Origin: Atherix ibis
Lineage: Eukaryota; Arthropoda; Insecta; Diptera; Athericidae
DNA: 64,000 nucleotides
Assembly (NCBI GenBank): GCA_958298945.1
Contig: OY282607.1
Location: 55,343,020 to 55,407,019, forward strand
Direction of reading: 5' to 3'
Shown here: piece after piece, positions 8,401 through 62,270 of the stretch
Position numbering within the stretch: position 1 is the stretch's first letter
Layout: each line of letters starts with the position of its first letter
Translations under genes and position numbers: made by a program
The notes under the pieces: generated by a model
Database searches by the model: none
The model's input: only the letters and a program-made list of their open reading frames with translations
Told to the model about the DNA's origin: nothing

Positions 8401-8832
8401 CTGCCTGTCATCGTAATTTTGAATAAACAGCAAGCCGCGAAATAGAAAAAGCAAGTCTAGCATATATATTCATAGTTCCAGTAATATTTGTAAATTAGTT
8501 CAGGTTGATCCGTGTGCCAAAGAAATAAGATTATTGAATTTTTCAAATTATTCTATTTTATCGGTTCTTTTCCATTTATAAAAATAATTTTATTTATTTA
8601 TTTTCGTTGGTTATTTGTCAAATTATTTGAATTTTTTAAAGTATTTCGTTTATTGGTAAGCATTTTTGCTTTTGTTCTTATAAATTGATAGTAATCAATT
8701 ATCGAATTTATGATCCAAAGTAGTCGATATTCTGCGTGTGCTTTTTTGTTTTGCTTCAAAATCATAACTATAAGTGATAAGTGATTTATTTATTTACAAC
8801 ACATTTGATACCAAATACATAACCACAAATGT

Positions 8833-10834: not shown

Positions 10835-11255
10835 ACATTTGTTGTTATGTATTTGGTATCAAATGTGTTGTAAATAAATAAATCACTTATCACTTATAGT
10901 TATGATTTTGAAGCAAAACAAAAAAGCACACGCAGAATATCGACTACGTTGGATCATAAATTCGATAATTGATTACTATCAATTTATAAGAACAAAAGCA
11001 AAAATGCTTACCAATAAACGAAATACTTTAAAAAATTCAAATAATTTGACAAATAACCAACGAAAATAAATAAATAAAATTATTTTTATAAATGGAAAAG
11101 AACCGATAAAATAGAATAATTTGAAAAATTCAATAATCTTATTTCTTTGGCACACGGATCAACCTGAACTAATTTACAAATATTACTGGAACTATCTAAT
11201 ATATAAAATTCTCGTGTCACAGTTTTCGTTCCCATACTCCTCCGAAACGGCTTGA

Positions 11256-11355
11256 CCGATTCTCATGAAATTTTGTGAGCGTATTGAGTAGGTCTGAGAA
11301 TCGGCCAACATCTATTTTTCATCCCCCTAAATGTTAGGGGTAGTCCACCCCTGAA
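11256..11355 (+). promoter_or_regulatory. Helitron copy 1 5' subterminal stem-loops
   Basis: Three potential stems. The first is a 10-bp perfect inverted repeat, CCGATTCTCA at 11256-11265 with TGAGAATCGG at 11295-11304. The second pairs CCCCTAA (11324-11330) with TTAGGGG (11334-11340) around ATG. The third is a competing stem pairing AGGGGT (11336-11341) with ACCCCT (11347-11352). The last two share bases and cannot form together. They are candidates for transposase recognition or start-site structure. Copy 2 has the same at +7096. Confidence 0.55.
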
Positions 11356-11586
11356 TTTTTTTTTTTATTTTTTAGACAAAATTTTTAATTTCTATTTTTT
11401 TATGATACAACATACAAAAATACATACAATCCTTAATTTTTACCCTTCAACGATCAACCCTCATTTTTTAATAGCCATTTTAGTAATTTAATCATTTTTT
11501 ATCTCCGGTCGAAAACTGATCAATCGTCATTTAATTAGTTAACCTCGCCAGATGTCTTCAGGTGTCACTTCTGACCCAGTAAACAG

Positions 11587-13055
11587 CACGGAGTAGGGAT
11601 GAGAACGAAGCCGGTCTCCTTTCTTTCTCACTCCCTACACAGTTGTCGGCCATCATTATTGTTTATACATCAAGTGTAGTAGTAACGTTGACAATTATTA
11701 TTTTGCTATCTCAGTGTGCCGGTCTCCTTTCTTTCTCACTCCCTACACAGTTGTCGGCCATCATTATTGTTTATACATCAAGTGTAGTAGTAACGTTGAC
11801 AATTATCATTTTGCTATCTCAGTGTAACTCTCATATAAACTTTTAATCATTCCTATTTTATCAATAATAATTAAATTATCAATTTTGAGTGTATTTTGCA
11901 CGATTAGTTTATCAAGTGATTTTATAACCACAAAAGTACTCAACACGTGACACGAGCTTCCAATAACAACGGATTTTGTGTTGTAAGTATACTTTTTTTT
12001 ATTTATATCGAAAATGTTGTTGATCTTATGAAAATCTTAATTCACGGAGTAGGGATGAGAACGAAGCCGGTCTCCTTTCTTTCTCACTCCCTACACAGTT
12101 GTCGGCCATCATTATTGTTTATACATCAAGTGTAGTAGTAACGTTGACAATTATTATTTTGCTATCTCAGTGTGCCGGTCTCCTTTCTTTCTCACTCCCT
12201 ACACAGTTGTCGGCCATCATTATTGTTTATACATCAAGTGTAGTAGTAACGTTGACAATTATTATTTTGCTATCTCAGTGTGCCGGTCTCCTTTCTTTCT
12301 CACTCCCTACACAGTTGTCGGCCATCATTATTGTTTATACATCAAGTGTAGTAGTAACGTTGACAATTATTATTTTGCTATCTCAGTGTAACTCTCATAT
12401 AAACTTTTAATCATTCCTATTTTATCAATAATAATTAAATTATCAATTTTGAGTGTATTTTGCACGATTAGTTTATCAAGTGATTTTATAACCACAAAAG
12501 TACTCAACACGTGACACGAGCTTCCAATAACAACGGATTTTGTGTTGTAAGTATAATTTTTTTTATTTATATCGAAAATGTTGTTGATCTTATGAAAATC
12601 TTAATTCACGGAGTAGGGATGAGAACGAAGCCGGTCTCCTTTCTTTCTCACTCCCTACACAGTTGTCGGCCATCATTATTGTTTATACATCAAGTGTAGT
12701 AGTAACGTTGACAATTATTATTTTGCTATCTCAGTGTGCCGGTCTCCTTTCTTTCTCACTCCCTACACAGTTGTCGGCCATCATTATTGTTTATACATCA
12801 AGTGTAGTAGTAACGTTGACAATTATCATTTTGCTATCTCAGTGTAACTCTCATATAAACTTTTAATCATTCCTATTTTATCAATAATAATTAAATTATC
12901 AATTTTGAGTGTATTTTGCACGATTAGTTTATCAAGTGATTTTATAACCACAAAAGTACTCAACACGTGACACGAGCTTCCAATAACAACGGATTTTGTG
13001 TTGTAAGTATACTTTTTTTTATTTATATCGAAAATGTTGTTGATCTTATGAAAAT
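11587..13055 (+). repeat. Triplicated leader/promoter-like module, Helitron copy 1
   Basis: Three direct repeats start at CACGGAGTAGGGATGAGAAC: 11587-12042 (456 bp), 12043-12606 (564 bp) and 12607-13055 (449 bp). Within them a 108-bp subunit beginning CCGGTCTCC occurs 2, 3 and 2 times (11611, 11719; 12067, 12175, 12283; 12631, 12739). Each subunit ends CTATCTCAGTGT, close to the insect initiator consensus. Each long repeat also carries an E-box (CACGTG) and a splice donor GTAAGTAT (11983, 12547, 13003). I infer three alternative first exons splicing to one acceptor at 13386. Open frames in the 108-bp repeats are by-products of a period divisible by three. Confidence 0.75.
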
Positions 13056-13386
13056 GTAATTTTAATTTAATTTTATTAAAAAAATGTAATTGAACAATTA
13101 AGATTTTCATAGTTTCCAAAAATTCAATCATTATGAATCTTTATTTTGAAATGTCAATGGAAATATTGGTTGTATGAAAAAATTATAAGAGACAATGTTT
13201 TCATAAAATTTAATTTTTTAGTTTTGTTTGAAAAATTTTTCCATAAAACTTATATTTTTGTTAAACTTTCATAAATTAAAACTAATCATTTCAAAACTGT
13301 GGCAAAAATCCTGGCCCTAATTATACTTTTAACATTTTTCATCATTAAGTAATTTCAATAATTCTATTTATGTGTGTTTTGTACAG
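13003..13386 (+). other. Predicted 5'UTR intron, Helitron copy 1
   Basis: Donor GTAAGT at 13003 and acceptor TTTTGTACAG ending at 13386, six bases before the ATG at 13393. The intervening 384 bp are AT-rich and have no homology. The same donor occurs in the two upstream repeats. Copy 2 equivalent: 20099-20482. Confidence 0.5.
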
Positions 13387-13392
13387 TGAGCA

Positions 13393-16300
13393 ATGCCAAG
13401 AAAACGCAAAGGGGCTGATTTGAGCCGTAATACAAGTAAGTCTCGAAACTTGCGAAATAGAAGATCCGAAAGAAACGAAGAAGAAATCCAGCAACAAAAT
13501 ACTGATGCACGTGTCAGAATGGCGCAATTGCATCAAGAAGAGCCAGACGATACACGAGCTGAACGCAATGAAGTCAGAAGATTAGAACAACGACAATCAC
13601 GCCGTTTCACAGTCAATAGACGCAGAACAAATGACCAACAACGACAACAGGTACATCGAGCATTTATATCTGATTCGTTCCTGCGTCTAGCATTCCAGTA
13701 TGAGCCCGATATTGAATATTATGCTCATTCAAAAGTGGTAATTGGTGCTATGGACAAGAAATGTCCGCATTGTCATGCTCTAAAATTCAAAAATGAGCCA
13801 GCTGGGATGTGTTGCGCGTCAGGAAAAGTGCAACTACCTGAAATTGAAACACCACCTGAACCATTGAACGGCTTACTTATCGGCACGTATTCAGATTCTA
13901 ACGTGCTCCTGAAGTCAATTCGAAGATTCAATTCATGCTTTCAAATGACATCGTTCGGTGCAACAGAAATAGTTCGAAATACTAATGCAAATGCTCAACA
14001 ATTCAATTCTACATTCAAAATCAGAGGCCAAGTTTATCATAAAATGGGCTCACTGCTGCCAATGCCAAACGAACCACATAAATTTTTACAAATCTACTTT
14101 ATGGGCGGCGAGGATTCCGGAAACGCACTTGCCAATCGCGTGAATGCACGTTGTGATTATAATAACCTTGATTCACTTTATGCCAGGCGCATCGTCAGTG
14201 AGCTAGATGCTCTTTTGAACGAGCACAACGAGTTGTTGAAAATATTCAAATCACATATGCACCAATTACAAAGCGATAATCACGCTATCGTCATTAATCC
14301 TGATAAAACACCAGCTGGAGAGCATATTCGTAGATTCAATGCACCCGTTGTTGATGATGTTGCTGGAATCATGGTTGGCGATTGTACAGCTGCACGAGAA
14401 ATTGTGATTCGTAGAAGAAATAATAATCTTCAGTTCATTGCTGACACACATCGTTCATATGACGCTCTCCAATATCCGCTAATATTTTGGAAGGGACAAG
14501 ACGGATATTGCATAAACATAAAACAACGAGATCCCGTATCAGGTACTTCATTGATTATTAATTTGATCATTAATCATTTAACAAAACAATTAAATTATTG
14601 AACGTAATAAATTTAAATTAATTTTTATGAATAAATTACAGGAGCTGAAACAAACAAGAACGTTAGCTCAAAGGATTATTATGCGTACCGATTAATGATT
14701 AGACGTGGCCTGGACAACGTCATTTTACGATGTCGTGAGCTTTGTCAACAATTCATGGTCGACATGTACGCGAAGATTGAGAGCGAACGACTACGATACT
14801 TACGATATAATCAACAAAAGCTGCGCGCGGAAGAGTACATTCATTTGCGAGACGCTATCAACAACAACGCCGACGTCGCCGAAATTGGTAACCATGTCAT
14901 TTTACCATCATCGTACGTAGGCAGTCCACGTCATATGCAAGAATATATACAGGATGCTCTGACTTTCGTGCGCGAATATGGACGACCATGTTTATTTATC
15001 ACGTTCACATGTAATCCAAAATGGCCAGAGATTACATCTTTGCTACTGCCTGGCCAAAATGCAATACATCGCCATGACATTACAGCACGTGTGTTCAGAC
15101 AAAAGTTGAAGTCTTTAATAAGTTTCATTACTAAATCACATGTATTCGGTCCCACACGTTGCTGGATGTATTCGGTTGAGTGGCAAAAGCGAGGATTACC
15201 TCATGCACACATTTTGGTTTGGTTCATCGACAAAATCCGTCCTGAAGAAATCGATAGTATCATTTCTGCTGAAATTCCAGATCCATCCACTGACCAACTG
15301 CTGTTTGATATTGTTACAACAAACATGATTCATGGTCCATGTGGTACTCTTAATAGTTCATCGCCTTGCATGGCTGATGGAAAATGTACTAAAAATTTCC
15401 CTAAAGATTTTACCAATGATACGGTCACAAATGTCGACGGATACCCAATATATCGTCGAAGAAATCCTGAAAATGGCGGACAATCATTTATTAAAAATAT
15501 CATCAACACAGACATTGATATTGACAATCGTTGGGTGGTGCCATATTCGCCTCTGCTGAGCAAGACATATAATGCTCATATTAATGTTGAGTTCTGCAGT
15601 TCTGTGAAGAGCATCAAATACATTTGCAAGTATGTCCATAAAGGCAGTGATATGGCTGTGTTTAGAGTGGAAAATACTAATGTGAATGCTCCTCCAATGA
15701 ATAAAAACGATGAAATAACGCTCTACCAAATTGGTCGGTACATCAGCTCCAATGAAGCTGCTTGGCGTATCTTTGGTTTTCCAATTCATGAACGGGATCC
15801 AGCAGTTGTTCAGTTAGCCATCCATCTTGAAAACGGTCAGCGTGTATTTTTCACGAACGAGACAGCGATTGATCGTGCAATAAATCCACCTAAAACTACA
15901 CTCACTGCATTTTTTGAATTGTGTAATCGTGCGGATGATTTTGGTGCCTTTGCACGAACATTACTCTATTCACAAGTACCACGCTATTTCACATGGACTC
16001 AAATAAAAACATGGATGCCCCGCAAGCAAGGCTCACCAGTTGCTGCATGTCTCAATTTATTTAAATCAAACGCCTTGGGGCGATTATTTACAGTCAATCC
16101 AAGACACACTGAGTGCTTTTATCTTCGACTGTTGTTGGTTAATGTTACTGGCCCATTATCATTTCAAGATATACGTAAAGTGAATGGGCAACAATATCCA
16201 ACGTATAAAGATGCATGCCTTGCACTCGGCTTGCTGGAAGACGACAACCAGTGGGAATGCATGCTTGCTGAAGCTGCATTGAACTGTACAGCAATACAAA

Positions 16301-18003
16301 TTCGTCTACTATTCGCTATAGTGTTAACTACATGTTTCCCAGCCCGAGCACAGATATTATGGGAAAATCACAAAGATTCAATGACTGATGATATATTGCA
16401 TCAACATCGTATACGGTGCCACGATCTAACCATAACATTCAGCGACGAAATGTACAATGAAGCATTGATTGCTATTGAGGATCTTTGCATTGTCATTGCC
16501 AACTTACCACTTAGTAATTTCGGTATGAATTCGCCAAATCGAACTGCATCTGATTTAATGAATACTGAAATGAATCGTGAACTGCAGTACAGTACTGTAG
16601 AAATGGCAGCGATTGTTGCCCGCAATGTCCCACTAATGAATGAGGAACAAAGAACCATTTATGATCGCATTATGCTCGCAGTTTCAGCTGGACAAGGTGG
16701 GTTCTTCTTTTTGGATGCACCGGGTGGAACTGGCAAAACATTCGTTATTTCGCTAATTCTTGCTGAAATACGATCAAATAATGGCATCGCATTGGCCGTT
16801 GCATCATCGGGCATTGCAGCAACTTTATTGGATGGAGGTAGAACAGCTCATTCAGTATTTAAGCTGCCACTAAATATTCAGAATAACCCTGACGCAGTAT
16901 GCAACATTAAGAAACAATCGTCCATGGCCACTGTGCTGAAACGGTGTAAAATTATTATTTGGGATGAATGTACTATGGCACACAAACATTCACTTGAGGC
17001 GTTGAACAGGACATTGAAAGATATTAAAAACAGTGACAAACTATTTGGCGGAACTCTGTTGGTCCTTTCAGGTGATTTCAGACAAACACTTCCAGTCATT
17101 CCACGTTCAACATACGCTGATGAGATCAACGCTTGCTTAAAATCATCTCCATTGTGGCGTAATGTTGAAAAATTACAGCTAAAAATAAATATGCGCGTTC
17201 AAATGCTTCAAGATCCATCCGCTGAAACATTTTCAAAACAACTCTTAGATATCGGTGATGGAAAAGTTGCTATAGATGAAACTGGATACGTAAAATTACC
17301 GACCGATTTCTGCACAATCGCTGATTCGCAAGATACTCTCATTGAACAAATATTTCCCGATGTACACACACAGTACATAAATCATGAGTGGCTTGCAGAA
17401 AGAGCGATTTTAGCGGCAAAAAATGTAGACGTTGACAATTTAAATCTGAAGATACAAATGTTGTTGCCAGGGAACTTGGTATCATATAAATCTATTGATA
17501 CAGTTTGCGACGACAGCGAAGCAGTAAATTTTCCCACAGAGTTTTTGAACTCACTGGATTTGCCAGGCATGCCACCGCATAATTTACAATTAAAGGTTGG
17601 ATCTCCAATTATCTTGCTTCGTAATTTGAACCCGCCCCGGCTGTGCAACGGTACGCGATTAGTCATTCAAAAATTAATGAAAAACGTGATCGAAGCCAGA
17701 ATTTTAAATGGCAAGCTCAGAGGTGAAAATATACTCATACCACGGATTCCTATTATACCTACAGATGTGCCAATTCAATTCAAACGTATTCAGTTTCCGA
17801 TTAGATTGGCATTTGCAATGACTATCAACAAATCCCAAGGTCAAACGATGTCTGTTTGTGGATTAGATTTGAGAACACCATGTTTTTCACACGGACAATT
17901 ATACGTGGCATGCTCTCGAGTGGGTAAACCATCCAGTTTGTTTGTGTTAGCTAGAGATGGACTAACAAAAAATATTGTTCACGCTATAGCATTAAGAGAT
18001 TGA
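13393..18003 (+). CDS. Helitron Rep/PIF1-helicase transposase, copy 1
   Basis: Replicates and moves the element by rolling-circle DNA strand transfer. Two exons, 13393-14542 and 14642-18003, flank a 99-bp GT-AG intron (14543-14641). Splicing restores the conserved DPVSGAETNKN junction and gives about 1503 aa. In order: a basic N-terminus; a CxxC segment MDKKCPHCHALKF; a Helitron_like_N region; the HUH nuclease motif GLPHAHILVW near residue 570; the two-tyrosine motif KYICKYVHKG; Walker A APGGTGKT near 1075; Walker B IIWDECTMAH; SGDFRQTLPV; and the C-terminal INKSQGQT...VACSRVG of PIF1-like SF1B helicases. All key motifs are present and no stop or frameshift remains after splicing. ATG chosen because it follows the acceptor directly. 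Glycine and proline at ENGGQSF and YSPLL match the family consensus, unlike copy 2. Confidence 0.93.
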
Positions 18004-18258
18004 TATTGTTTAATAGTGTTACTGTCGTAATTGTTTAATTAATGATATATAATTTTAAGGAATAAATTATAATAACTTAAAAATAATGTTTGCCTTTTGT
18101 TATTTTTATATTCCCTCATCGTTCACAGCGCTCCATGCTTATTTCACGCATATACCACATTCTTACATATATACAATATACATATTCTAACATACATACA
18201 TACTTACAATAAGTAAGCTATTTTGTGTCTACACTAGAAATGACTAGGAAATTATTTA

Positions 18259-18290
18259 TATGGCAAAACAACGTTTACCGGGTCAGCTAG
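18259..18290 (+). terminator. Helitron copy 1 3' hairpin and CTAG terminus
   Basis: The stem GGCAAA (18262-18267) pairs with TTTACC (18274-18279) around ACAACG, with one C-A mismatch, then GGGTCAG and the terminal CTAG (18287-18290). In Helitrons this hairpin helps define the 3' cleavage point. The mismatch is shared by copy 2. Confidence 0.7.
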
Positions 18291-18682
18291 TCTAATATAT
18301 AAAATTCTCGTGTCACAGTTTTCGTTCCCATACTCCTCCGAAACGGCTTGACCGATTCTCATGAAATTTTGTGAGCGTATTGAGTAGGTCTGAGAATCGG
18401 CCAACATCTATTTTTCATCCCCCTAAATGTTAGGGGTAGTCCACCCCTGAATTTTTTTTTTTATTTTTTAGACAAAATTTTTAATTTCTATTTTTTTATG
18501 ATACAACATACAAAAATACATACAATCCTTAATTTTTACCCTTCAACGATCAACCCTCATTTTTTAATAGCCATTTTAGTAATTTAATCATTTTTTATCT
18601 CCGGTCGAAAACTGATCAATCGTCATTTAATTAGTTAACCTCGCCAGATGTCTTCAGGTGTCACTTCTGACCCAGTAAACAG

Positions 18683-20151
18683 CACGGAGTAGGGATGAGA
18701 ACGAAGCCGGTCTCCTTTCTTTCTCACTCCCTACACAGTTGTCGGCCATCATTATTGTTTATACATCAAGTGTAGTAGTAACGTTGACAATTATTATTTT
18801 GCTATCTCAGTGTGCCGGCCTCCTTTCTTTCTCACTCCCTACACAGTTGTCGGCCATCATTATTGTTTATACATCAAGTGTAGTAGTAACGTTGACAATT
18901 ATCATTTTGCTATCTCAGTGTAACTCTCATATAAACTTTTAATCATTCCTATTTTATCAATAATAATTAAATTATCAATTTTGAGTGTATTTTGCACGAT
19001 TAGTTTATCAAGTGATTTTATAACCACAAAAGTACTCAACACGTGACACGAGCTTCCAATAACAACGGATTTTGTGTTGTAAGTATACTTTTTTTTATTT
19101 ATATCGAAAATGTTGTTGATCTTATGAAAATCTTAATTCACGGAGTAGGGATGAGAACGAAGCCGGTCTCCTTTCTTTCTCACTCCCTACACAGTTGTCG
19201 GCCATCATTATTGTTTATACATCAAGTGTAGTAGTAACGTTGACAATTATTATTTTGCTATCTCAGTGTGCCGGTCTCCTTTCTTTCTCACTCCCTACAC
19301 AGTTGTCGGCCATCATTATTGTTTATACATCAAGTGTAGTAGTAACGTTGACAATTATTATTTTGCTATCTCAGTGTGCCGGTCTCCTTTCTTTCTCACT
19401 CCCTACACAGTTGTCGGCCATCATTATTGTTTATACATCAAGTGTAGTAGTAACGTTGACAATTATTATTTTGCTATCTCAGTGTAACTCTCATATAAAC
19501 TTTTAATCATTCCTATTTTATCAATAATAATTAAATTATCAATTTTGAGTGTATTTTGCACGATTAGTTTATCAAGTGATTTTATAACCACAAAAGTACT
19601 CAACACGTGACACGAGCTTCCAATAACAACGGATTTTGTGTTGTAAGTATAATTTTTTTTATTTATATCGAAAATGTTGTTGATCTTATGAAAATCTTAA
19701 TTCACGGAGTAGGGATGAGAACGAAGCCGGTCTCCTTTCTTTCTCACTCCCTACACAGTTGTCGGCCATCATTATTGTTTATACATCAAGTGTAGTAGTA
19801 ACGTTGACAATTATTATTTTGCTATCTCAGTGTGCCGGTCTCCTTTCTTTCTCACTCACTACACAGTTGTCGGCCATCATTATTGTTTATACATCAAGTG
19901 TAGTAGTAACGTTGACAATTATCATTTTGCTATCTCAGTGTAACTCTCATATAAACTTTTAATCATTCCTATTTTATCAATAATAATTAAATTATCAATT
20001 TTGAGTGTATTTTGCACGATTAGTTTATCAAGTGATTTTATAACCACAAAAGTACTCAACACGTGACACGAGCTTCCAATAACAACGGATTTTGTGTTGT
20101 AAGTATACTTTTTTTTATTTATATCGAAAATGTTGTTGATCTTATGAAAAT
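18683..20151 (+). repeat. Triplicated leader/promoter-like module, Helitron copy 2
   Basis: Same three-part architecture as in copy 1, shifted by 7096 bp: long repeats at 18683, 19139 and 19703, with 2, 3 and 2 of the 108-bp subunits. Two of the four inter-copy differences fall here (18819 and 19858). Splice donors lie at 19079, 19643 and 20099. Confidence 0.75.
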
Positions 20152-20488
20152 GTAATTTTAATTTAATTTTATTAAAAAAATGTAATTGAACAATTAAGAT
20201 TTTCATAGTTTCCAAAAATTCAATCATTATGAATCTTTATTTTGAAATGTCAATGGAAATATTGGTTGTATGAAAAAATTATAAGAGACAATGTTTTCAT
20301 AAAATTTAATTTTTTAGTTTTGTTTGAAAAATTTTTCCATAAAACTTATATTTTTGTTAAACTTTCATAAATTAAAACTAATCATTTCAAAACTGTGGCA
20401 AAAATCCTGGCCCTAATTATACTTTTAACATTTTTCATCATTAAGTAATTTCAATAATTCTATTTATGTGTGTTTTGTACAGTGAGCA

Positions 20489-23400
20489 ATGCCAAGAAAA
20501 CGCAAAGGGGCTGATTTGAGCCGTAATACAAGTAAGTCTCGAAACTTGCGAAATAGAAGATCCGAAAGAAACGAAGAAGAAATCCAGCAACAAAATACTG
20601 ATGCACGTGTCAGAATGGCGCAATTGCATCAAGAAGAGCCAGACGATACACGAGCTGAACGCAATGAAGTCAGAAGATTAGAACAACGACAATCACGCCG
20701 TTTCACAGTCAATAGACGCAGAACAAATGACCAACAACGACAACAGGTACATCGAGCATTTATATCTGATTCGTTCCTGCGTCTAGCATTCCAGTATGAG
20801 CCCGATATTGAATATTATGCTCATTCAAAAGTGGTAATTGGTGCTATGGACAAGAAATGTCCGCATTGTCATGCTCTAAAATTCAAAAATGAGCCAGCTG
20901 GGATGTGTTGCGCGTCAGGAAAAGTGCAACTACCTGAAATTGAAACACCACCTGAACCATTGAACGGCTTACTTATCGGCACGTATTCAGATTCTAACGT
21001 GCTCCTGAAGTCAATTCGAAGATTCAATTCATGCTTTCAAATGACATCGTTCGGTGCAACAGAAATAGTTCGAAATACTAATGCAAATGCTCAACAATTC
21101 AATTCTACATTCAAAATCAGAGGCCAAGTTTATCATAAAATGGGCTCACTGCTGCCAATGCCAAACGAACCACATAAATTTTTACAAATCTACTTTATGG
21201 GCGGCGAGGATTCCGGAAACGCACTTGCCAATCGCGTGAATGCACGTTGTGATTATAATAACCTTGATTCACTTTATGCCAGGCGCATCGTCAGTGAGCT
21301 AGATGCTCTTTTGAACGAGCACAACGAGTTGTTGAAAATATTCAAATCACATATGCACCAATTACAAAGCGATAATCACGCTATCGTCATTAATCCTGAT
21401 AAAACACCAGCTGGAGAGCATATTCGTAGATTCAATGCACCCGTTGTTGATGATGTTGCTGGAATCATGGTTGGCGATTGTACAGCTGCACGAGAAATTG
21501 TGATTCGTAGAAGAAATAATAATCTTCAGTTCATTGCTGACACACATCGTTCATATGACGCTCTCCAATATCCGCTAATATTTTGGAAGGGACAAGACGG
21601 ATATTGCATAAACATAAAACAACGAGATCCCGTATCAGGTACTTCATTGATTATTAATTTGATCATTAATCATTTAACAAAACAATTAAATTATTGAACG
21701 TAATAAATTTAAATTAATTTTTATGAATAAATTACAGGAGCTGAAACAAACAAGAACGTTAGCTCAAAGGATTATTATGCGTACCGATTAATGATTAGAC
21801 GTGGCCTGGACAACGTCATTTTACGATGTCGTGAGCTTTGTCAACAATTCATGGTCGACATGTACGCGAAGATTGAGAGCGAACGACTACGATACTTACG
21901 ATATAATCAACAAAAGCTGCGCGCGGAAGAGTACATTCATTTGCGAGACGCTATCAACAACAACGCCGACGTCGCCGAAATTGGTAACCATGTCATTTTA
22001 CCATCATCGTACGTAGGCAGTCCACGTCATATGCAAGAATATATACAGGATGCTCTGACTTTCGTGCGCGAATATGGACGACCATGTTTATTTATCACGT
22101 TCACATGTAATCCAAAATGGCCAGAGATTACATCTTTGCTACTGCCTGGCCAAAATGCAATACATCGCCATGACATTACAGCACGTGTGTTCAGACAAAA
22201 GTTGAAGTCTTTAATAAGTTTCATTACTAAATCACATGTATTCGGTCCCACACGTTGCTGGATGTATTCGGTTGAGTGGCAAAAGCGAGGATTACCTCAT
22301 GCACACATTTTGGTTTGGTTCATCGACAAAATCCGTCCTGAAGAAATCGATAGTATCATTTCTGCTGAAATTCCAGATCCATCCACTGACCAACTGCTGT
22401 TTGATATTGTTACAACAAACATGATTCATGGTCCATGTGGTACTCTTAATAGTTCATCGCCTTGCATGGCTGATGGAAAATGTACTAAAAATTTCCCTAA
22501 AGATTTTACCAATGATACGGTCACAAATGTCGACGGATACCCAATATATCGTCGAAGAAATCCTGAAAATTGCGGACAATCATTTATTAAAAATATCATC
22601 AACACAGACATTGATATTGACAATCGTTGGGTGGTGCCATATTCGACTCTGCTGAGCAAGACATATAATGCTCATATTAATGTTGAGTTCTGCAGTTCTG
22701 TGAAGAGCATCAAATACATTTGCAAGTATGTCCATAAAGGCAGTGATATGGCTGTGTTTAGAGTGGAAAATACTAATGTGAATGCTCCTCCAATGAATAA
22801 AAACGATGAAATAACGCTCTACCAAATTGGTCGGTACATCAGCTCCAATGAAGCTGCTTGGCGTATCTTTGGTTTTCCAATTCATGAACGGGATCCAGCA
22901 GTTGTTCAGTTAGCCATCCATCTTGAAAACGGTCAGCGTGTATTTTTCACGAACGAGACAGCGATTGATCGTGCAATAAATCCACCTAAAACTACACTCA
23001 CTGCATTTTTTGAATTGTGTAATCGTGCGGATGATTTTGGTGCCTTTGCACGAACATTACTCTATTCACAAGTACCACGCTATTTCACATGGACTCAAAT
23101 AAAAACATGGATGCCCCGCAAGCAAGGCTCACCAGTTGCTGCATGTCTCAATTTATTTAAATCAAACGCCTTGGGGCGATTATTTACAGTCAATCCAAGA
23201 CACACTGAGTGCTTTTATCTTCGACTGTTGTTGGTTAATGTTACTGGCCCATTATCATTTCAAGATATACGTAAAGTGAATGGGCAACAATATCCAACGT
23301 ATAAAGATGCATGCCTTGCACTCGGCTTGCTGGAAGACGACAACCAGTGGGAATGCATGCTTGCTGAAGCTGCATTGAACTGTACAGCAATACAAATTCG

Positions 23401-25099
23401 TCTACTATTCGCTATAGTGTTAACTACATGTTTCCCAGCCCGAGCACAGATATTATGGGAAAATCACAAAGATTCAATGACTGATGATATATTGCATCAA
23501 CATCGTATACGGTGCCACGATCTAACCATAACATTCAGCGACGAAATGTACAATGAAGCATTGATTGCTATTGAGGATCTTTGCATTGTCATTGCCAACT
23601 TACCACTTAGTAATTTCGGTATGAATTCGCCAAATCGAACTGCATCTGATTTAATGAATACTGAAATGAATCGTGAACTGCAGTACAGTACTGTAGAAAT
23701 GGCAGCGATTGTTGCCCGCAATGTCCCACTAATGAATGAGGAACAAAGAACCATTTATGATCGCATTATGCTCGCAGTTTCAGCTGGACAAGGTGGGTTC
23801 TTCTTTTTGGATGCACCGGGTGGAACTGGCAAAACATTCGTTATTTCGCTAATTCTTGCTGAAATACGATCAAATAATGGCATCGCATTGGCCGTTGCAT
23901 CATCGGGCATTGCAGCAACTTTATTGGATGGAGGTAGAACAGCTCATTCAGTATTTAAGCTGCCACTAAATATTCAGAATAACCCTGACGCAGTATGCAA
24001 CATTAAGAAACAATCGTCCATGGCCACTGTGCTGAAACGGTGTAAAATTATTATTTGGGATGAATGTACTATGGCACACAAACATTCACTTGAGGCGTTG
24101 AACAGGACATTGAAAGATATTAAAAACAGTGACAAACTATTTGGCGGAACTCTGTTGGTCCTTTCAGGTGATTTCAGACAAACACTTCCAGTCATTCCAC
24201 GTTCAACATACGCTGATGAGATCAACGCTTGCTTAAAATCATCTCCATTGTGGCGTAATGTTGAAAAATTACAGCTAAAAATAAATATGCGCGTTCAAAT
24301 GCTTCAAGATCCATCCGCTGAAACATTTTCAAAACAACTCTTAGATATCGGTGATGGAAAAGTTGCTATAGATGAAACTGGATACGTAAAATTACCGACC
24401 GATTTCTGCACAATCGCTGATTCGCAAGATACTCTCATTGAACAAATATTTCCCGATGTACACACACAGTACATAAATCATGAGTGGCTTGCAGAAAGAG
24501 CGATTTTAGCGGCAAAAAATGTAGACGTTGACAATTTAAATCTGAAGATACAAATGTTGTTGCCAGGGAACTTGGTATCATATAAATCTATTGATACAGT
24601 TTGCGACGACAGCGAAGCAGTAAATTTTCCCACAGAGTTTTTGAACTCACTGGATTTGCCAGGCATGCCACCGCATAATTTACAATTAAAGGTTGGATCT
24701 CCAATTATCTTGCTTCGTAATTTGAACCCGCCCCGGCTGTGCAACGGTACGCGATTAGTCATTCAAAAATTAATGAAAAACGTGATCGAAGCCAGAATTT
24801 TAAATGGCAAGCTCAGAGGTGAAAATATACTCATACCACGGATTCCTATTATACCTACAGATGTGCCAATTCAATTCAAACGTATTCAGTTTCCGATTAG
24901 ATTGGCATTTGCAATGACTATCAACAAATCCCAAGGTCAAACGATGTCTGTTTGTGGATTAGATTTGAGAACACCATGTTTTTCACACGGACAATTATAC
25001 GTGGCATGCTCTCGAGTGGGTAAACCATCCAGTTTGTTTGTGTTAGCTAGAGATGGACTAACAAAAAATATTGTTCACGCTATAGCATTAAGAGATTGA
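20489..25099 (+). CDS. Helitron Rep/PIF1-helicase transposase, copy 2
   Basis: Same gene as in copy 1: exons 20489-21638 and 21738-25099, intron 21639-21737, about 1503 aa, with HUH, two-Tyr, Walker A/B and C-terminal helicase motifs all unchanged. It differs by two amino acids between the HUH and two-Tyr motifs. Gly becomes Cys (ENCGQSF, base 22571) and Pro becomes Thr (YSTLL, base 22646). Both depart from residues usual in the family, so this copy may be weakened while copy 1 keeps the consensus. It is likewise free of stops and frameshifts. Confidence 0.92.
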
Positions 25100-25354
25100 T
25101 ATTGTTTAATAGTGTTACTGTCGTAATTGTTTAATTAATGATATATAATTTTAAGGAATAAATTATAATAACTTAAAAATAATGTTTGCCTTTTGTTATT
25201 TTTATATTCCCTCATCGTTCACAGCGCTCCATGCTTATTTCACGCATATACCACATTCTTACATATATACAATATACATATTCTAACATACATACATACT
25301 TACAATAAGTAAGCTATTTTGTGTCTACACTAGAAATGACTAGGAAATTATTTA

Positions 25355-25386
25355 TATGGCAAAACAACGTTTACCGGGTCAGCTAG
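25355..25386 (+). terminator. Helitron copy 2 3' hairpin and CTAG terminus
   Basis: Identical to the 3' end of copy 1, including the mismatched stem. Here the CTAG is followed by the target T, which marks correct termination. Confidence 0.7.
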
Positions 25387-38175: not shown

Positions 38176-39259
38176 ATTTCAAAGGTCATATAATCAATCA
38201 ATAAAATGGAAATTACGAAATTTTATTTTATTTAAAATTTATTGAATGAAAAGTTCGACCTAGAACATAAAACGCACCCTGTTTATACTGACTCTTAGTG
38301 GTCGATTTACTTGGTTGATGGTTAATTTTATTTTAATGGCTGCGATTATCTCGATAATAGTTGGAGATTGTCAATATAAAAATATTGCAAAGCCATAACA
38401 CTATAAAGCCAACCATACACAAAACTCATCCTAAAAAAATTGAAATAAATAAGAGATTATTGTTCTGCTAACAGTTTTAAACGTGAACATTTTATGTCCA
38501 TAATTAAATTTGTTTGGTCATTTTTCCATATTGTACAAAATATTTCTAAACCGGTATTTGTGTTAAATTTTTGTTATTCATCGCTCGATAACGTTCCATA
38601 TTTGTGATATACTTTTGTTAAAAATTTTCTATTTCGCCCGAATCAAGAAATTAAAGACAATTGCAAAGAGTAAAGAAACTGCACTGCATCGAAACATTCA
38701 TGCTTTAATGTTCAATTGAATTTTTAAGTTAACCTAACCTCATATATGCGTTGAACTTGCGTTTGCTTTGGATTTCAAATGTCAAAAAATAATGCGGCGA
38801 ACCTACAGTTTACAGTAACTACTGTAACTGCCTGTCATCGTAATTTTGAACAAACAGCAAGCCGCGAAATAGAAAAAGCAAGTCTAGCATATATATTCAT
38901 AGTTCCAGTAATATTTGTAAATTAGTTCAGGTTGATCCGTGTGCCAAAGAAATAAGATTATTGAATTTTTCAAATTATTCTATTTTATCGGTTCTTTTCC
39001 ATTTATAAAAATAATTTTATTTATTTATTTTCGTTGGTTATTTGTCAAATTATTTGAATTTTTTAAAGTATTTCGTTTATTGGTAAGCATTTTTGCTTTT
39101 GTTCTTATAAATTGATAGTAATCAATTATCGAATTTATGATCCAACGTAGTCGATATTCTGCGTGTGCTTTTTTGTTTTGCTTCAAAATCATAACTATAA
39201 GTGATAAGTGATTTATTTATTTACAACACATTTGATACCAAATACATAACAACAAATGT

Positions 39260-43001: not shown

Positions 43002-44348
43002 ATGGACACAGTCAAGTCAAAATTAGTAACACTGTGTGAAGATTCAGAAGGCAAGGTTAATTATGCGTCCTGGCGCTTAAAATTAAACTTAGTCTTAAAA
43101 ACAAAAGATGTGTATGAAGTCGCAATCGGCACAAAAGTCAAACCAGCAGGTGCCTCAACTGATGAAACAGTGAAAGCATGGGTCAAACAAGATCTCGAGG
43201 GCCAAACACTCATCGCACTCAACGTGAGCAGTCAGATAGCCAGCAAACTCGCACACTGTGTGACTTCAAAACAGATGTTGGACAAAATCATCAACCTGTA
43301 CGGAACTAAAACTGAAGTGACCAGAGAGACATTGCGACAGAAATTTTTCTCATTTGTCTACGACGAGACAAAGTCAGCTGCTGAAAATTGCATGGACATC
43401 ACCGCCATTGCCGAGGAACTAGCAAATGACATTGATCCAATTCGTCCAAGTTGGATGATATCGAGGATCCTGGGTGTGCTGCCACCCAAGTTGGCATACT
43501 TCAGGACATCATGGGACAACGTCGATGCAGGACAGCAGACAGTGGAAAGACTAGTTGAACGACTCAGACTTGAGGACGAGAGGCTGAAAGAAAATGGAAA
43601 TGGATATCAAACAAGCAATCAGAATGCACTTGTCACCAAGCACCACAACAAGAAAGGACAGCAACCAATGAGCAAGAGTGAGGCCAAATCGAAAATCTGT
43701 TTCAAGTGTGAGAAGAAAGGACACTTTGTGAGGGAATGCAAAGGCAAGCCAACACCAAAGTACTTAGAATATTGCATACGCAATTACGCCTGCAACAAGT
43801 GCGGAAAGAAGGGACACTTCAAAAATGAATGCAGATCACGTTCCAGTGAGCAGAGTAACCAGTCACCATTGGCACTTCTGAACACATCCCATGACACAAA
43901 CTCATTGCTGAGCAGCAATTTAGTGAGCAAGGACGAATGTTGGTTTCAGGACTGTGGAGCGAGCCAACATATGTCATCACACCGCAAGTGGTTCACCGAC
44001 ATGGTCGAACTGGACAAGCCTGTTCTAATCCTAATTGGAAATGGCACTCAGCTAAATGGCGTTGCTGTTGGAAATGTGAAATTGGAAGCATATGATGGCC
44101 AGAAGTGGAAGGAAGTGGTTCTCAAAAATGGTTTGTACGTGCCAAGTCTCGGATTTAACCTCGTCTCAGTGGGGCAAATCCTGGATAAAGGTTTTCAACA
44201 AAAGGCTGACCACAAAAGGTCAAAATTTGTCAACCCAAGGACAAATGAAGTAGCTGTCATGGCAGAACGAGAGGGCAACCTATTCAAGATGCTACTGAGG
44301 AGAGAAAAGAAAGTTGAATGCACTTTTATCACATCAATCAGGACATGA
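43002..44348 (+). pseudogene. copia gag-protease segment
   Basis: 448 codons. The N-terminal part is a UBN2-type copia capsid region (YASWRLKLNLVLKTKDVYEV). Two CCHC nucleic-acid-binding knuckles follow, CFKCEKKGHFVREC and CNKCGKKGHFKNEC, then the aspartic protease with DCGASQHMSSH as its active-site block. The frame ends in TGA at 44346-44348, just before the integrase zinc-binding region, which continues in another frame. Retroelements of this family normally encode one long polyprotein, so this is a disabling break. Knuckles and protease otherwise look complete. Confidence 0.85.
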
Positions 44349-45364
44349 CATGAGAGACTGGCGCATCAAAACATAAAGTACGTGAAAAACATTTTGAAAA
44401 GTCAAAATGTGAAGTATGTGGACGACTGGGATGGCACCAACTGCATAGGCTGTGACTATGGGAAGTACCATCGGATTTCTCACCCTCCAAACCCGAAGAA
44501 AGCGAAACAACCCCTGGACCTGGTGCACGTGGACATGCGTGAAATGGACGTTCCTTCTCTCGGAAACTCAAAGTATTTTCTCCTATTTAAAGACGACTAC
44601 ACACATTATCGCACGATATACTCCATGAAGTCCAAAGATGAAGCTTCAAGCAAACTTGAAAAGTACATCAACCTGGTAGAAAATCAATTCGGGAGGAAAA
44701 TAAAGAAACTCAGATCAGACAACGGAACCGAGATAAGGAACGCCCAAACAAGAAAGATGGTAGAAGAAAGAGGAATTTTCCACACAGTCACAAACACCCA
44801 CACACCAGAGCAAAATGGAAGGATCGAGAGCGAAATGCGAACCATCGTAGAAGCCGCTCGTACAGCAATTCACTCCAACGGACTAGACAAGAGACTATGG
44901 GCGGAGGCAGCAAACTACGCAGTCTTCACCATCAACCAGACTGGCACAAGCTCCGTTGAAGGAAAGACACCAGCACAACTTTGGTTTGGACGACAGGTCG
45001 ATATCAGCAACGTAGCACTCACATCCGAATGCTGCGTGCATTCGTATGTGAGTGCTACGTACTCAAACCAAATCACAAGAGAGGAAAGATGGATCGCAAG
45101 TCTGAAAAAGGAATCATGATAGGCTACGAATGGGACTCACCATGTTATAGAATTTACATTCCAAGCACAGGAAAAATCGTCAGCTCAGACAACGTAATCT
45201 TCCATGAAGCCAAGCATGAAGCAAGACCAAGGACAGAACTGAGCTACTCAAGCCCGCAAGAAGTGACTGCTGAAGAAAAAGAAGCGGATGAGGAAACGGA
45301 GCAAGCAGAATGCGAGTCAGACGAAGATGGACAGCATGAAAAACCGAAAGAAAGGGTCAACTAG
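44349..45364 (+). pseudogene. copia integrase segment, frame-broken
   Basis: Integrase inserts the cDNA into the host genome. The HHCC zinc finger is recognisable (HERLAHQN, then CIGCDYGKYHR), followed by catalytic residues in VHVDM, LRSDNGTE and GRIESEMRT, a D,D(35)E-type core. The frame open from 44382 stops at 45119 because of an inserted hairpin at 45010-45060. The distal part continues in the frame of 44981-45364 with ECYVLKPNHKRGKMDRKSEKG and ends in TAG at 45362-45364. Confidence 0.82.
45010..45060. repeat. 22-bp inverted repeat inserted in integrase
   Basis: Arms 45010-45031 and 45039-45060 are complementary except for one base, with a 7-nt loop. The right arm belongs to the native reading (FVCECYV). 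The left arm is extra and shifts the frame, the pattern of a fold-back, template-switched insertion. Confidence 0.8.
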
Positions 45365-45608
45365 ACACCACCAGCGAATCAGACACCAAGTCGAGAACTG
45401 AGAGTCCGCAACACTCTGAAACAACCCAAAAGATACGCCGACTACATCACCGACTTCCTGGGAAGAGGCAACATTGCACAATGTGCACTGATTGGTGAAG
45501 TTGGGGAAATCGCCGTCGAAAATGCACTGAAGGATCCTGATTGGAGAAAGGCGATGCAGGAGGAGTACGATTCGTTGATGAAAATAAGGACCTGGAAGTT
45601 GGAAGAAT

Positions 45609-45690
45609 GCCCGAAGGATGTCAAGCCATTATCTTGCAGAATGCCCGAAGGATGTCAAGCCATTATCTTGCCCGAAGGATGTCACTGCGT
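45609..45690 (+). repeat. 34-bp tandem duplication inside copia RT
   Basis: The segment beginning GCCCGAAGGATGTCA occurs at 45609, 45643 and 45670 (the last two shorter). Slippage expansion that disrupts the polyprotein frame. Confidence 0.75.
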
Positions 45691-47031
45691 GAGAAAGCGA
45701 ACGGTAAATTGAAAGCCAGACTTGTCGCAAGAGGTTTTGAGCAGAAAGAAGGTATAGACTATGCCGAGACATTTAGTCCAGTAGCTCGTCATGCCTCGAT
45801 ACGATTGATACTGAGTCATGCTGCAACTGAAAAGATGAAGTTGGTCGCATTCGACGTCAAAACTGCTTTTCTGTATGGGAAGTTGACTGAAGTTTTGCAC
45901 ATGACTCAACCCCAAGGATTCGAAGATGAAAGTAAAAAAGTATGCCATCTACTCAAAGCAATCTACGGTCTGAAAAAGGCTCCAAGAGTCTGGAACGAGG
46001 AAGTGTCAGGAAAATTTGAGGAACTTGGACTGCAGAGCACTGACGATGATCCTTGTGTTTATTATAATCAGGATAGGAGCATCCTGATGACACTCTTTGT
46101 AGATGATGGGCTTATCGCAGGAAAGGACGTGACTGAAATCTACAAGCTGTTGAAGAAAATTAGTCAAATATTTGAAATCACCTACAGTGAGACCGTGCAA
46201 GAGGAATTTTCATATCTGGGGATGGAACTGAAGGTGAAGACTGATGGGATATCTGTGAGCCAACCCAGGCTCGAGAAGATGCAACATGCCGACTGCAACC
46301 CCGTCTCAACTCCCATCGACATTGGAGCTGCGAAAGAAGTCATGGAGAAACCGAATGTCCAAGCAACAGCCACCAAAGCACCCTACCGAGAGGCAATTGG
46401 TAGCTTGCTGTATCTTGCGACAATCTCCAGGCCAGACATTAGTTTTGCGGTAAATATTCTCAGCAGATTCTGTGCACAACCAAAAGACACTCACTGGAAC
46501 ATGGTGAAGCGAGTATTCAAGTATCTGAGAGGCACGATGAACAGTGGAATCTTCTGCAATGGAGACAACAAAATGGAAGCTTACTCTGATTCGGACTTCG
46601 GAGGAGATCGAGAGACTATGCATTCGACGACTGGAGTGCTACTCATGCGAGGTGGACCACTGGTGTGGTACTCGCAAAAGCAACGACTAGTGGCAACCTC
46701 CACAGCCGAAGCCGAGTACCGGGCAGCAGTATTTGCCATTGATGACGTTTGTTGGATAAGAAGAATCGCTCGTGAGCTCAAAATTCTGCAGACTGATGAA
46801 CCCACCGACCTCTACGTGGATAACAGATCTGCAATCTACATGCTCAAGAATGTTCACGAAGGCAAAACCAATAAGGGCAAGAAACACATTGAAATTCCCC
46901 GTAAGTTTATCCAACAGCACATCGACAAAACTGTAAGTCCAAAACCAATTCGAAGTGAACAGCAATTAGCTGACATTTTCACCAAATCATTGAGTAAGAA
47001 AATCTTTGCAAAACTACGTAGTGAATTAATT

Positions 47032-47040
47032 CAGGAGGAG
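47032..47040 (+). promoter_or_regulatory. copia polypurine tract
   Basis: CAGGAGGAG abuts the TG of the 3' LTR at 47041, the position for plus-strand priming. Confidence 0.6.
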
Positions 47041-47152
47041 TGTTGAGATGAATTAATTTCACTTGCAATTATTTTTAAGTTATTATATAGAGTCAAAACA
47101 AAACTAAGTAGGCAGTAATTAGAAAATGAAGTTTTCGTTTATAGAATAATAA
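47041..47152 (+). repeat. copia 3' LTR, truncated to 112 bp
   Basis: Identical to the first 112 bp of the 5' LTR, then joins sequence otherwise found at 30536. About 143 bp of LTR and roughly 1.6 kb of U2'/L are missing. Confidence 0.88.
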
Positions 47153-59275: not shown

Positions 59276-59970
59276 CCGTTTTGCACGCAGACAATGTCTG
59301 AGGTTAAATTAATTCTCGAAACAAAAATGTCCCCGAACCAGAAAATTACACTCAAAATGTTTAAGTTTCAAATTATGATGAATGAAAATTAGAAAAAAAA
59401 TCAAACTTTAATGATTCGAACTTAAAAGTTCTCAAATTAAGATACTTTTAAAAATAGTTTTTTAGTTAGTTTTCACATTTAAGGACTATTTTATTATTGT
59501 ATGAGTGGGTGGAAAGTGTAGGCGTTGCTCCAAACGATAAGACAAGACACTAAGTAATAAGAAGAATTTTTTTCTGTATCCGAAAACAAAGCGAACAAAA
59601 GTAAAACGAAGAACAAAGTAAATAAACATGTAGAAAAGGTGATGAGTTTTCCTTGTCAGAGCATAACTTAATAAAAAACAAAACAAAAGAAAAAATGATT
59701 ATTTCATGTTCAGGATTCTTGTCGAATCTTGGAATTTTTGAATAATGGCAAGCGAATTGGTAAACAGTTTCTTCCATTTTTCTCTAATAAATTTTGTCTT
59801 CTGCTCACACACTTTTGGTGTTTTGGTGCGTGTGCACACCTGCTCCTCCGTCTAGCATTCCATTTCACCAACGTTCAAATATTATTTTACCCCAAACAAA
59901 CGCATTCTAGAATCCTTTCTGCCACGAATTTCTCATCACACGGCAACACAGTTTCTCATATAAAATTTAG
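59276..59970. other. AT-rich sequence outside the repeat array
   Basis: Homology to U stops near 59275. Short open frames on both strands (59486-59989) have no recognisable similarity. I see no gene here. Confidence 0.5.
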
Positions 59971-60870
59971 GAGCTCAAATGGTAGTTAAGGGCTTAAATG
60001 GTAGTCACACGCTCAAATGGTAGTTGGGTCTTCAAATGGTAGTTGGGGGCTCAAATGGTATTTACGCGGTCAAATATTATTTGGACATTCACATGGTAGC
60101 TACAGGGCACAAATGGTAGCTGCGGGGCTCAAATGGTGGTTCGGAAATCTAATGGTAGTTGGGTGTTCACACAGAAGTTGGGGGGGTCAAATGGTAATTG
60201 GAGGCTCAACCGGTAGTTGGGGTCCTAAATTATAGTTGGACGTTCACATGGTAGTGAGGGGTCTCAAATTTTTATTGGGTCCTTAACCGGCAGTTGGGTC
60301 CTCAAATTATAGTTGCATGTTCACATGTTAGTTGAGGGCTCAAATGGTAATTGAACGCTCAACCGTTAGTTGGGGTCTCAAATGGTATTTGGTCGTTTAC
60401 ATGGTAGTTGGTGGTTCACATGATAGTTAGGTGCTCAAATGGTAGTTGGACATTGAAATAGTAATTCGGGGCTCAAATGGTAGCTGCGGAGCTCAAATGG
60501 TAGTTCGGGAATCAAATGGTAGATGGCTTTTCACATAGAAGTTGGTGGGCTCAAATGGTAATTGGAAGCTCAACCGGTAGTTGGGGTCTCAAATTGTAGT
60601 TGGACGTTCATACGGTAGTTAGCTGTTCATATGGCAGTTCAGTAATTAAATGGTAGTTTGCTGTTTATATAGTAGTTGGGACCTTAAATGGTAGTTGGGG
60701 ATTCAAATGGTTGCTGCGGGGCTCAAATGTTAGTTGGATGAGTGCCTACAATTTAGATGTGCTGCATATGTGGGCATTGAAATATTAGCCTCCTATCCAA
60801 ATTATAGCCACTCCTCCAAATAGTAGCCGGCTACCCGAATGGTAGTCGGTTATCTGAATGGTAACTTCTT
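59971..60870. repeat. Minisatellite 1, about 19-bp unit
   Basis: About 45 degenerate copies of a unit close to GGCTCAAATGGTAGTTGGG, varying from 17 to 21 bp. Drift is highest at the right end, where CGAATGGTAGTCGG variants appear. Long translations across it are repeats of the unit, not genes. Confidence 0.9.
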
Positions 60871-62270
60871 AGTAGAGACCAAGCTCACATGGGGCTTGTC
60901 TATTCAAATTGAGGCCCAATTGAATAATTTTATTTAATCGGTCTTTGTCTTCATGAGAAAAATGTAGTTTATTCCTAAACAGTCAATCATTAGCCAGAAC
61001 ACTCTTGCAATGGAAATTGTGCGAAAGTTCGTACCGACGTGCGATTTTGTTAAATTGAACTGCTCTTCTTTCCTGCCAACTTTAGACATTCCAATACCAA
61101 ATGCCACTATACATTTTTCGTTGGTTTTCAAATAAATTAAAAAAATTTCATTTGAAATTAAATGTTGACTTATATTTACCCAAAAGAATCCATAGAAGCG
61201 TTCGTCTATTAAAATTACAATAAATTCGATAAAAGTGTTCGGATCAATTCTGTCCCCATTAATTTGGAAAAAACCTTCGCTATAGTAAGAAGGAAAATTA
61301 AAATTTGAGGAAATGAAAAAATAGAAAAAAATTGTATAAATAGAAAAAGCCACACCCCAAAACCACGACAATTATAGAAATTTCAATATTTTTCTTATTG
61401 TAAACTTATTTAAAGGCGATTCATGGAATCATAAATAAATTAACCATTAAAATTATATAGAATCCATTCGGTTTTATTGGAATTAATTTCAGTACAAATA
61501 AATATAAGGACAATTGGCACGTTTTTCTTTATAATAAAATATAATCGAGAGTAACAACATGAAAATGAGAAAAAAAGGAGATTTTCCATCCATTTTGGTA
61601 TCGTTTAGTCGATATTAATCGGCATCGTTCATACGTGAGTTTTTTGTTATTGCACCAAAGCCGATTATAAAAATAGTTGATGAGGGGTCGAGGGGACTCT
61701 GATGCCGTTGTTCTATTGTATATGATTTCGACTCAAAGAATTTTAACTTCCTGGAATCACTTCTCGGATTCATATCGTTTTGAATTTGTATCCAACCATG
61801 CATCTACATTCTGACGGTCTCGATTTTTTAGTACTTTTTCCATTTTTTGTTTTCGTACTGTGGAGGTGCTAGAGCCTTTTTCAAATGCATACTCTGACAC
61901 CCCTTAAAACATGTGATTTCCTTTTCAATTTTTCAAGTACATACAAACAATCAAAAGCTCGAAATTAAATTTATTAAATTTTTTATTCTCTAAACAAGAG
62001 TGTAATTCGACAAAGTGTAACGACTAATTTACGTAATTATGAGTTCCCGATTGCTAATAAAAGTCGACTTAATGCAATTTATTTGCCTAAAAAAAGGTTA
62101 TTCAGAGCACAACAAAGTGGATTAACTTTCTTTACTCATATTTCTATACATTTTAAAGGTAATGAAAACCAAATTCTATCGATAATGTCTTAAAATTTAT
62201 ATTTAAGAGTAGCTGACGATTACTTAAAAATAATTTTGGGGCTAAAAGAACTTTCGATGGAAGCTAAACG
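60871..62270. other. AT-rich stretch with one unassigned open frame
   Basis: A minus-strand frame of 145 codons (60934-61371) begins with a hydrophobic segment (WGVAFSIYTIFFYFFISS). It shows no motif I recognise, and the region has no codon-use contrast that I can judge by eye. The rest (61372-62270) has nothing evident. Confidence 0.3.

Follow-up and report, generated by a model that had tools for sequence, protein, structure and literature searches.

The 64,000-nt window analyzed here spans positions 55,343,020 to 55,407,019 of contig OY282607.1 in a single assembly of the dipteran Atherix ibis (GCA_958298945.1), and it contains two Helitrons, elements that presumably move by rolling-circle transposition, arranged head to tail. 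The upstream unit (copy 1, 11195–18290) and the downstream unit (copy 2, 18291–25386) lie on the forward strand, are 7096 nt each, contain no Ns and no indels relative to one another, and differ by substitutions at element positions 529, 1568, 4281 and 4356. Both begin with TC and end with CTAG, the CTRR-type termini that are canonical for Helitrons, and the CTAG of copy 1 (18287–18290) abuts the TC of copy 2 (from 18291) with zero intervening bases, so that the junction (18287–18292) reads CTAG^TC (the caret marks a boundary throughout). At the left boundary a host A (11194) precedes the first T of copy 1 (11195), and at the right boundary the final base of copy 2 (25386) is followed by a host T (25387) with no target duplication. 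A sequence-only reading of this DNA had described a tandem of two 7096-nt Helitrons at 11195–25386 with nothing between them and four substitutions, and all of these statements are confirmed in the sequence.

That reading also credited the tandem with coding capacity, correctly. In copy 1 an open reading frame (ORF) at 13393–14601 contains a predicted first exon (13393–14542, forward strand) for the N-terminal region of a RepHel transposase; most of the listed alignments of this region to relatives end near residue 385. A predicted 99-nt intron with GT-AG ends follows (14543–14641, forward strand; CAG^GTACTT...TTACAG^GAG), and then a predicted second exon (14642–18003, forward strand) that holds the ORF at 14695–18003 and specifies an HUH Rep domain (HAH and two tyrosines) and a Pif1-type helicase. 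The idea of a broken transposase was dropped, as the in-frame stops between ORF1 and ORF2 resemble a 99-nt GT-AG intron, which also fills the stop-filled gap when the two frames are aligned to a 1504-aa relative (P0001); the spliced gene would encode about 1503 aa. Copy 2 has the corresponding ORF1 (402 aa, 20489–21697, forward strand) and ORF2 (1102 aa, 21791–25099, forward strand), the latter with G261C and P286T relative to copy 1. ORF2 matches the Pfam families Helitron_like_N, PIF1 and Pif1_2B_dom, the combination sought in a RepHel protein, and its residues 7–1081 align to the Helraiser transposase (PDB 7lcc) with an E-value of 1.9e-235. In this alignment HAH, the two tyrosines of Y..KY, and the Walker motif GGTGKT are in register with Helraiser. 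HAH, the two tyrosines and GGTGKT are presumably the catalytic motifs of the transposase.

Outside the coding region each copy contains internal 108-nt and 456-nt repeats (11610–13055 in copy 1, with seven 108-nt units; 18706–20151 in copy 2; both forward strand). A 3'-terminal imperfect hairpin, GGCAAAACAACGTTTACC, lies 11 nt before the end of copy 1 (18262–18279, forward strand) and recurs at 25358–25375 (forward strand) in copy 2; it is an imperfect 18-nt palindrome with a weak predicted fold of -1.1 kcal/mol (last 40 nt, DNA parameters).

Target site and copies in the genome

The unoccupied form of the target is present in the window itself. Two near-identical inverted units, near 38899 (empty site 38839–38959, reverse strand) and near 8472 (8412–8532, reverse strand), read directly from the left flank into the right flank, with neither a gap nor a duplication; the site is likewise empty in a third unit, near 56360, that is more diverged. 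An exact empty site occurs 32 times in C3:55.08–55.38 Mb, the two window sites included, whereas the filled left junction occurs once in a search tolerating up to 3 mismatches; repeat counts from the genome search are lower bounds. These empty sites establish insertion at A^T without target-site duplication, as is canonical for Helitrons, and because they show the insertion site, the element most likely entered a single unit of an array that was already there.

A 351-nt probe returned 40 scored matches among 89 first-look candidates, and 38 of them are 98–100% identical to it, which suggests a recent spread. Twenty stretches were fetched, 19 of which include both ends of a copy; 14 of the 38 copies were partly read and one is truncated. 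In each of the 19 copies seen with both ends, which do not include the window pair, an A stands on the left and a T on the right. The length of 7096 nt is common in the family and not particular to the tandem, being shared by five other copies. Internal 108-nt/456-nt repeat number varies among copies (L033–L052) and explains much of the spread in length (7096, 6987, 6533 and 6076 nt). A pattern that contained the hairpin and allowed one mismatch, so that strongly changed ends would escape it, found 37 family 3' ends; 36 are exact, one has a change outside the hairpin, and the hairpin is unchanged in all of them. Place by place, these ends match all 38 copies except one that is truncated (L036/L006). 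A weak 3' hairpin was considered as a cause of failed termination and dropped, since the same hairpin stands at all 37 ends. The earlier suggestion that termination had been bypassed thus finds no mark in this element.

The 39-nt head-to-tail junction has a single exact match in the whole 670-Mb assembly. At 3 mismatches there is one more match (C3:57622731), in which a lone 3' end adjoins host sequence. A search for CTAG-TC junctions, which the sequence-only reading had recommended, was made with a gapped pattern (exact ends, spacing of at most 12 bases; decayed or deeper junctions would escape) and returned two tandem junctions genome-wide: that of the window and an offset tandem at C1:88.90 Mb, which proves to be an insertion at a 5' end. 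The rarity claimed for such structures is therefore fair within this genome, with two exact-ended junctions, but not beyond it, as tandems are known in bat, maize, rice, Drosophila and fungi (PMC5148889, PMC5876387). No related locus was found in the collections searched beyond the animal's own genome.

Kinship of the paired copies

The family is star-like: 21 other copies each carry 2–21 bases that depart from the commonest state, and few of these are held in common. Against this background, copies 1 and 2 have eight bases in common (element positions 194, 2027, 2565, 2694, 2697, 4810, 6522 and 6976) that are absent from the 21 other copies wherever these are covered, and their grouping as sisters is supported at 0.998 (FastTree) and 98 (ultrafast bootstrap). 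A 180-nt probe spanning three of the eight positions has 36 matches, of which only the window pair match at 100% and the other 34 at most at 98%. At position 4810, read across 38 copies, the pair has T, 35 copies have C, and one has a deletion. Five of the eight bases are coding, and the pair's residue occurs in no relative that is at least 80% identical (3, 3, 3, 11 and 5 relatives seen, respectively), though nine relatives more distant than that share it at ORF1 codon 167. The pair's bases are taken as derived because no other copy where covered and, at the coding sites, no relative at or above 80% identity has them.

The four differences between the copies can be polarized as well. Other genomic copies do so at all four sites, and the derived base is in copy 2 each time; copy 1 has no private change beyond the eight common to the pair. 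Positions 529 and 1568 are polarized by 13/14 internal repeat units, G261 (position 4281) is held in 13/14 close relatives, with one gap, and in 64/117 overall, and P286 (position 4356) is held in 114/117 protein relatives. Since the pair shares eight mutations unseen elsewhere, the doubling would have come late in the life of one element, which would have gathered about eight changes, been doubled, and then gained four more in copy 2. The imbalance of 4:0 is in the direction expected of an older downstream unit, although a split this uneven has a probability of 1/8 at equal rates and gives no more than a hint of the greater age of copy 2. All seven coding substitutions on the lineage of the pair (five shared, two private to copy 2) alter the amino acid, a pattern expected of a resident not under selection.

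The second tandem records its own formation more directly. At C1:88.90 Mb the sequence reads CATTTA^TCTAA, runs through a complete 7096-nt copy, and continues as TATATAAAATTC, which places the insertion at TCTAA^TATAT of a resident copy whose own TCTAA stays on the far side. Because this five-base offset leaves TCTAA behind, the C1 tandem is an insertion into the 5' end of a resident and not a concatemer. Its two units are one another's closest kin, with 3 shared derived bases and support of 0.883 (FastTree) and 91 (ultrafast bootstrap). A third sister pair lies tail to tail and about 2.5 kb apart at C3:57614237–57627144 (L041, L031, L002), also with 3 shared bases and a FastTree support of 0.936. 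Inverted duplication of the flanks was rejected for this pair, as the 3' flanks, 1517 and 654 nt long, resemble each other in scattered AT-rich stretches only, at 66–71% identity in stretches of at least 100 nt, and it is possible that the pair arose by local transposition.

Among the 703 pairs that can be formed from 38 copies, 12 have one or more derived bases in common; three of these reach two or more, and they are exactly the three pairs lying closest together (internal repeats left out; with 14/38 copies partly read and one truncated, some sharing may be missed). As a rough guide only, the reciprocal of the number of possible three-pair choices among the 703 is 1.7e-8. A permutation whose cut-off was too lax (3 shared bases over three pairs, reached in 266/20,000, when the observed total is 14) was not relied on.

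Formation of the tandem

With moderate confidence, we favor an origin of the upstream copy by self-insertion: the resident downstream copy would have re-inserted a rolling-circle copy of itself after the host A, immediately in front of its own first T. A long-resident Helitron would first have gathered the eight changes, which look like the mutations of one resident before its doubling because other copies share few. The resident, or its sister chromatid, may then have served as donor of a rolling-circle copy that landed in the A^T where the host A meets the first T of the resident, leaving copy 2 as the probable resident and copy 1 as the newcomer upstream. The AT-rich 5' terminus, which the transposase would also nick, may have served as target, and that nick may have helped to capture the new copy. 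Placement upstream would follow because only that side offers a canonical A^T; a downstream insertion would need G^T. The structure of the window fits a boundary A^T insertion with the newcomer upstream, and the C1 tandem was likewise formed at the 5' end of a resident. The 5' end presents further A^T sites just inside the boundary, and its first 15 nt are 93% A/T, like targets that have been used (right-side mean 91%), a composition matched by 7% of A^T sites in the window.

Several observations weigh against this origin. When 20 nt are considered, 30% of the A^T sites in the window equal the 5' end in A/T-richness. A resident that is itself the donor predicts equal later mutation in the two units, and 0 versus 4 has the probability of 1/8 given above; in the C1 tandem the imbalance is opposite, the inserted copy having 12 further changes and the resident 3 (repeats excluded). 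The exact A^TC junction alone cannot separate insertion from a dimer. The kinship of the C1 units and that of the third pair are each drawn from three bases, and in the third pair bootstrap values are 60–61 and a partly read copy intrudes. Gene conversion between neighbors could copy shared bases, but it would have to span the whole element. Local landing is also not a known general habit of Helitrons, because 701 Helraiser re-insertions showed no clustering near donor sites (PMC4778049).

The sequence-only reading had taken the junction as the sign of a circular or concatemeric rolling-circle intermediate. If rolling-circle synthesis on a circular intermediate produced a head-to-tail dimer that was inserted in one event, a perfect CTAG-TC junction would indeed result, as is found in Helraiser circles (PMC4778049), but insertion at the boundary A^T yields the same bases (PMC2267711). 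The units of a dimer would be sisters descended from one donor, which self-insertion predicts too. What sets the two apart is the donor, as a fresh dimer from the source of the family would not show eight mutations private to the pair. A donor already carrying the eight changes would be required, and none is present among the remaining 34 matches of the 180-nt probe; nor does any of 36 other copies have the pair's base at 4810 (35 have C and one is deleted there), although an unsampled haplotype could hold such a donor. Other insertions in the genome look derived from a source that lacked nearly all of the changes they now carry, the C1 tandem is not a dimer, the 3' hairpin is the common form of the family, and the equal length of the units is uninformative given five other copies of 7096 nt. 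A dimer is therefore regarded as rather unlikely. Doubling in place would need no new A^T target. Either homologous recombination between the resident and a double-stranded circle of itself, or repeated rounds of rolling-circle replication starting from the donor nick, would yield sister units and a perfect junction, and circles with such a junction are known from Helraiser (PMC4778049). We consider doubling of this kind improbable, as it leaves unexplained both the five-base offset of the C1 tandem and the inverted sister pair, whose members lie about 2.5 kb apart and have unrelated 3' flanks.

An assembly artefact, in which a single real copy was doubled by the assembler within the repeat array, is very unlikely. 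A palindromic array with 32 exact empty sites is hard to assemble, and the question was judged from the assembly itself. Nevertheless, the four differences are interspersed, the break coincides exactly with the ends of the element, there is just one filled left junction, contig C3 is large (107.7 Mb), and an independent second tandem exists elsewhere in the genome. Still less credible is a history in which two unrelated members of the family entered one A^T independently. The A^T rule would allow it, and consecutive insertion has been inferred for dissimilar adjacent Helitrons in maize (PMC2267711), but the eight shared derived bases are in no other copy where covered, and this candidate was dropped after the copy-by-copy comparison of kinship. 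Random targeting by 37 copies predicts about 2e-5 same-orientation insertions at the 5' end of a resident (a rough estimate), and for this reason chance is not a candidate for the tandem.

Beyond this locus, we suggest only tentatively that Helitrons target themselves, a new copy being caught at the element's own 5' end, so that tandems would grow frontward unit by unit and not by insertion of concatemers, with local landing as a habit of the family.

Comparison with known Helitrons and the surrounding array

The Helraiser/Helibat Helitrons (PMC4778049, PMC5876387; PDB 7lcc) resemble the Atherix element in their RepHel transposase, TC/CTAG ends and A^T target, and Helraiser circles contain a head-to-tail junction (PMC4778049) as the window pair does. 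Helraiser differs in that its 701 re-insertions are reported to lack local clustering (PMC4778049), whereas in Atherix the sister pairs, three in number, are those that lie closest together. Tandem Helitron arrays have been described in bat and plant genomes (PMC5876387), and multiple tandem insertions in bat, Drosophila, rice and maize (PMC5148889, PMC5876387); PMC13286980 is among the papers that jointly cover Helitron circles, tandem arrays and adjacent insertions. Adjacent head-to-tail Helitrons in maize have the same perfect CTAG-TC junction, and insertion between a host A and the 5' T is proposed there as one of two possible orders (PMC2267711). The maize pair is dissimilar and was read as consecutive insertions (PMC2267711), whereas the Atherix pair are sister copies. 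The tandems and self-insertions of Fusarium and Metarhizium are also similar, with repeated 5'-end insertion and rolling-circle replication both put forward for a triple tandem, although the Fusarium elements have non-canonical ends (PMC5148889). No copy-by-copy test of kinship was found for the fungal tandems in the accessible portion of PMC5148889, and none of kinship by distance in the accessible portions of the literature on tandem, circular, local and self-inserting Helitrons, which is not proof of absence.

Head-to-tail Helitrons have thus already been published; what is new here is evidence on how a pair formed and a pattern of local sisters unseen in the cell-culture tests of Helraiser. 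Such structures have been cited as traces of rolling-circle replication, with concatemers and repeated insertion both offered as explanations (PMC5148889). In a young family of 38 near-identical copies, most of them tagged by their own mutations, kinship can tell a concatemer from repeated insertion, and here it points to the late doubling of a resident, while the offset second tandem shows the 5' end being hit. A resident that likely re-inserted at its own front would offer a test of how tandem repeats form. Local self-insertion, if true, would account for the beginnings of Helitron arrays and of multiple 5' termini, and would depart from the behavior of Helraiser in cell culture, where local re-insertion was not seen.

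The transposase encoded at 14695–18003 is 93–99.7% identical over long stretches to proteins of a moth, a wasp, a fruit fly and a spider. These belong to Helitrons of Eumeta, Cotesia, Zeugodacus and Argiope, hosts of other orders that were compared by proteins alone, and such identity suggests that the family spread horizontally among arthropods.

The array that hosts the Helitron pair is palindromic and occupies 1–56610 of the window and C3:55.08–55.38 Mb, with long units in forward and inverted orientation that are mostly 92–99.5% alike (longer matches within the window). The 32 empty sites fall mostly in minus/plus pairs with a spacing of 2.2–4.1 kb, commonly near 2.7 kb. Scans of the window for Rfam families and tRNAs found nothing. 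The array units are interspersed at 43002–47046 with a Copia-type retrotransposon that matches gag, integrase and reverse transcriptase, and degenerate tandem-repeat arrays are present at 59967–60738 and 62270–63108, with periods near 19/77 nt and 15 nt.

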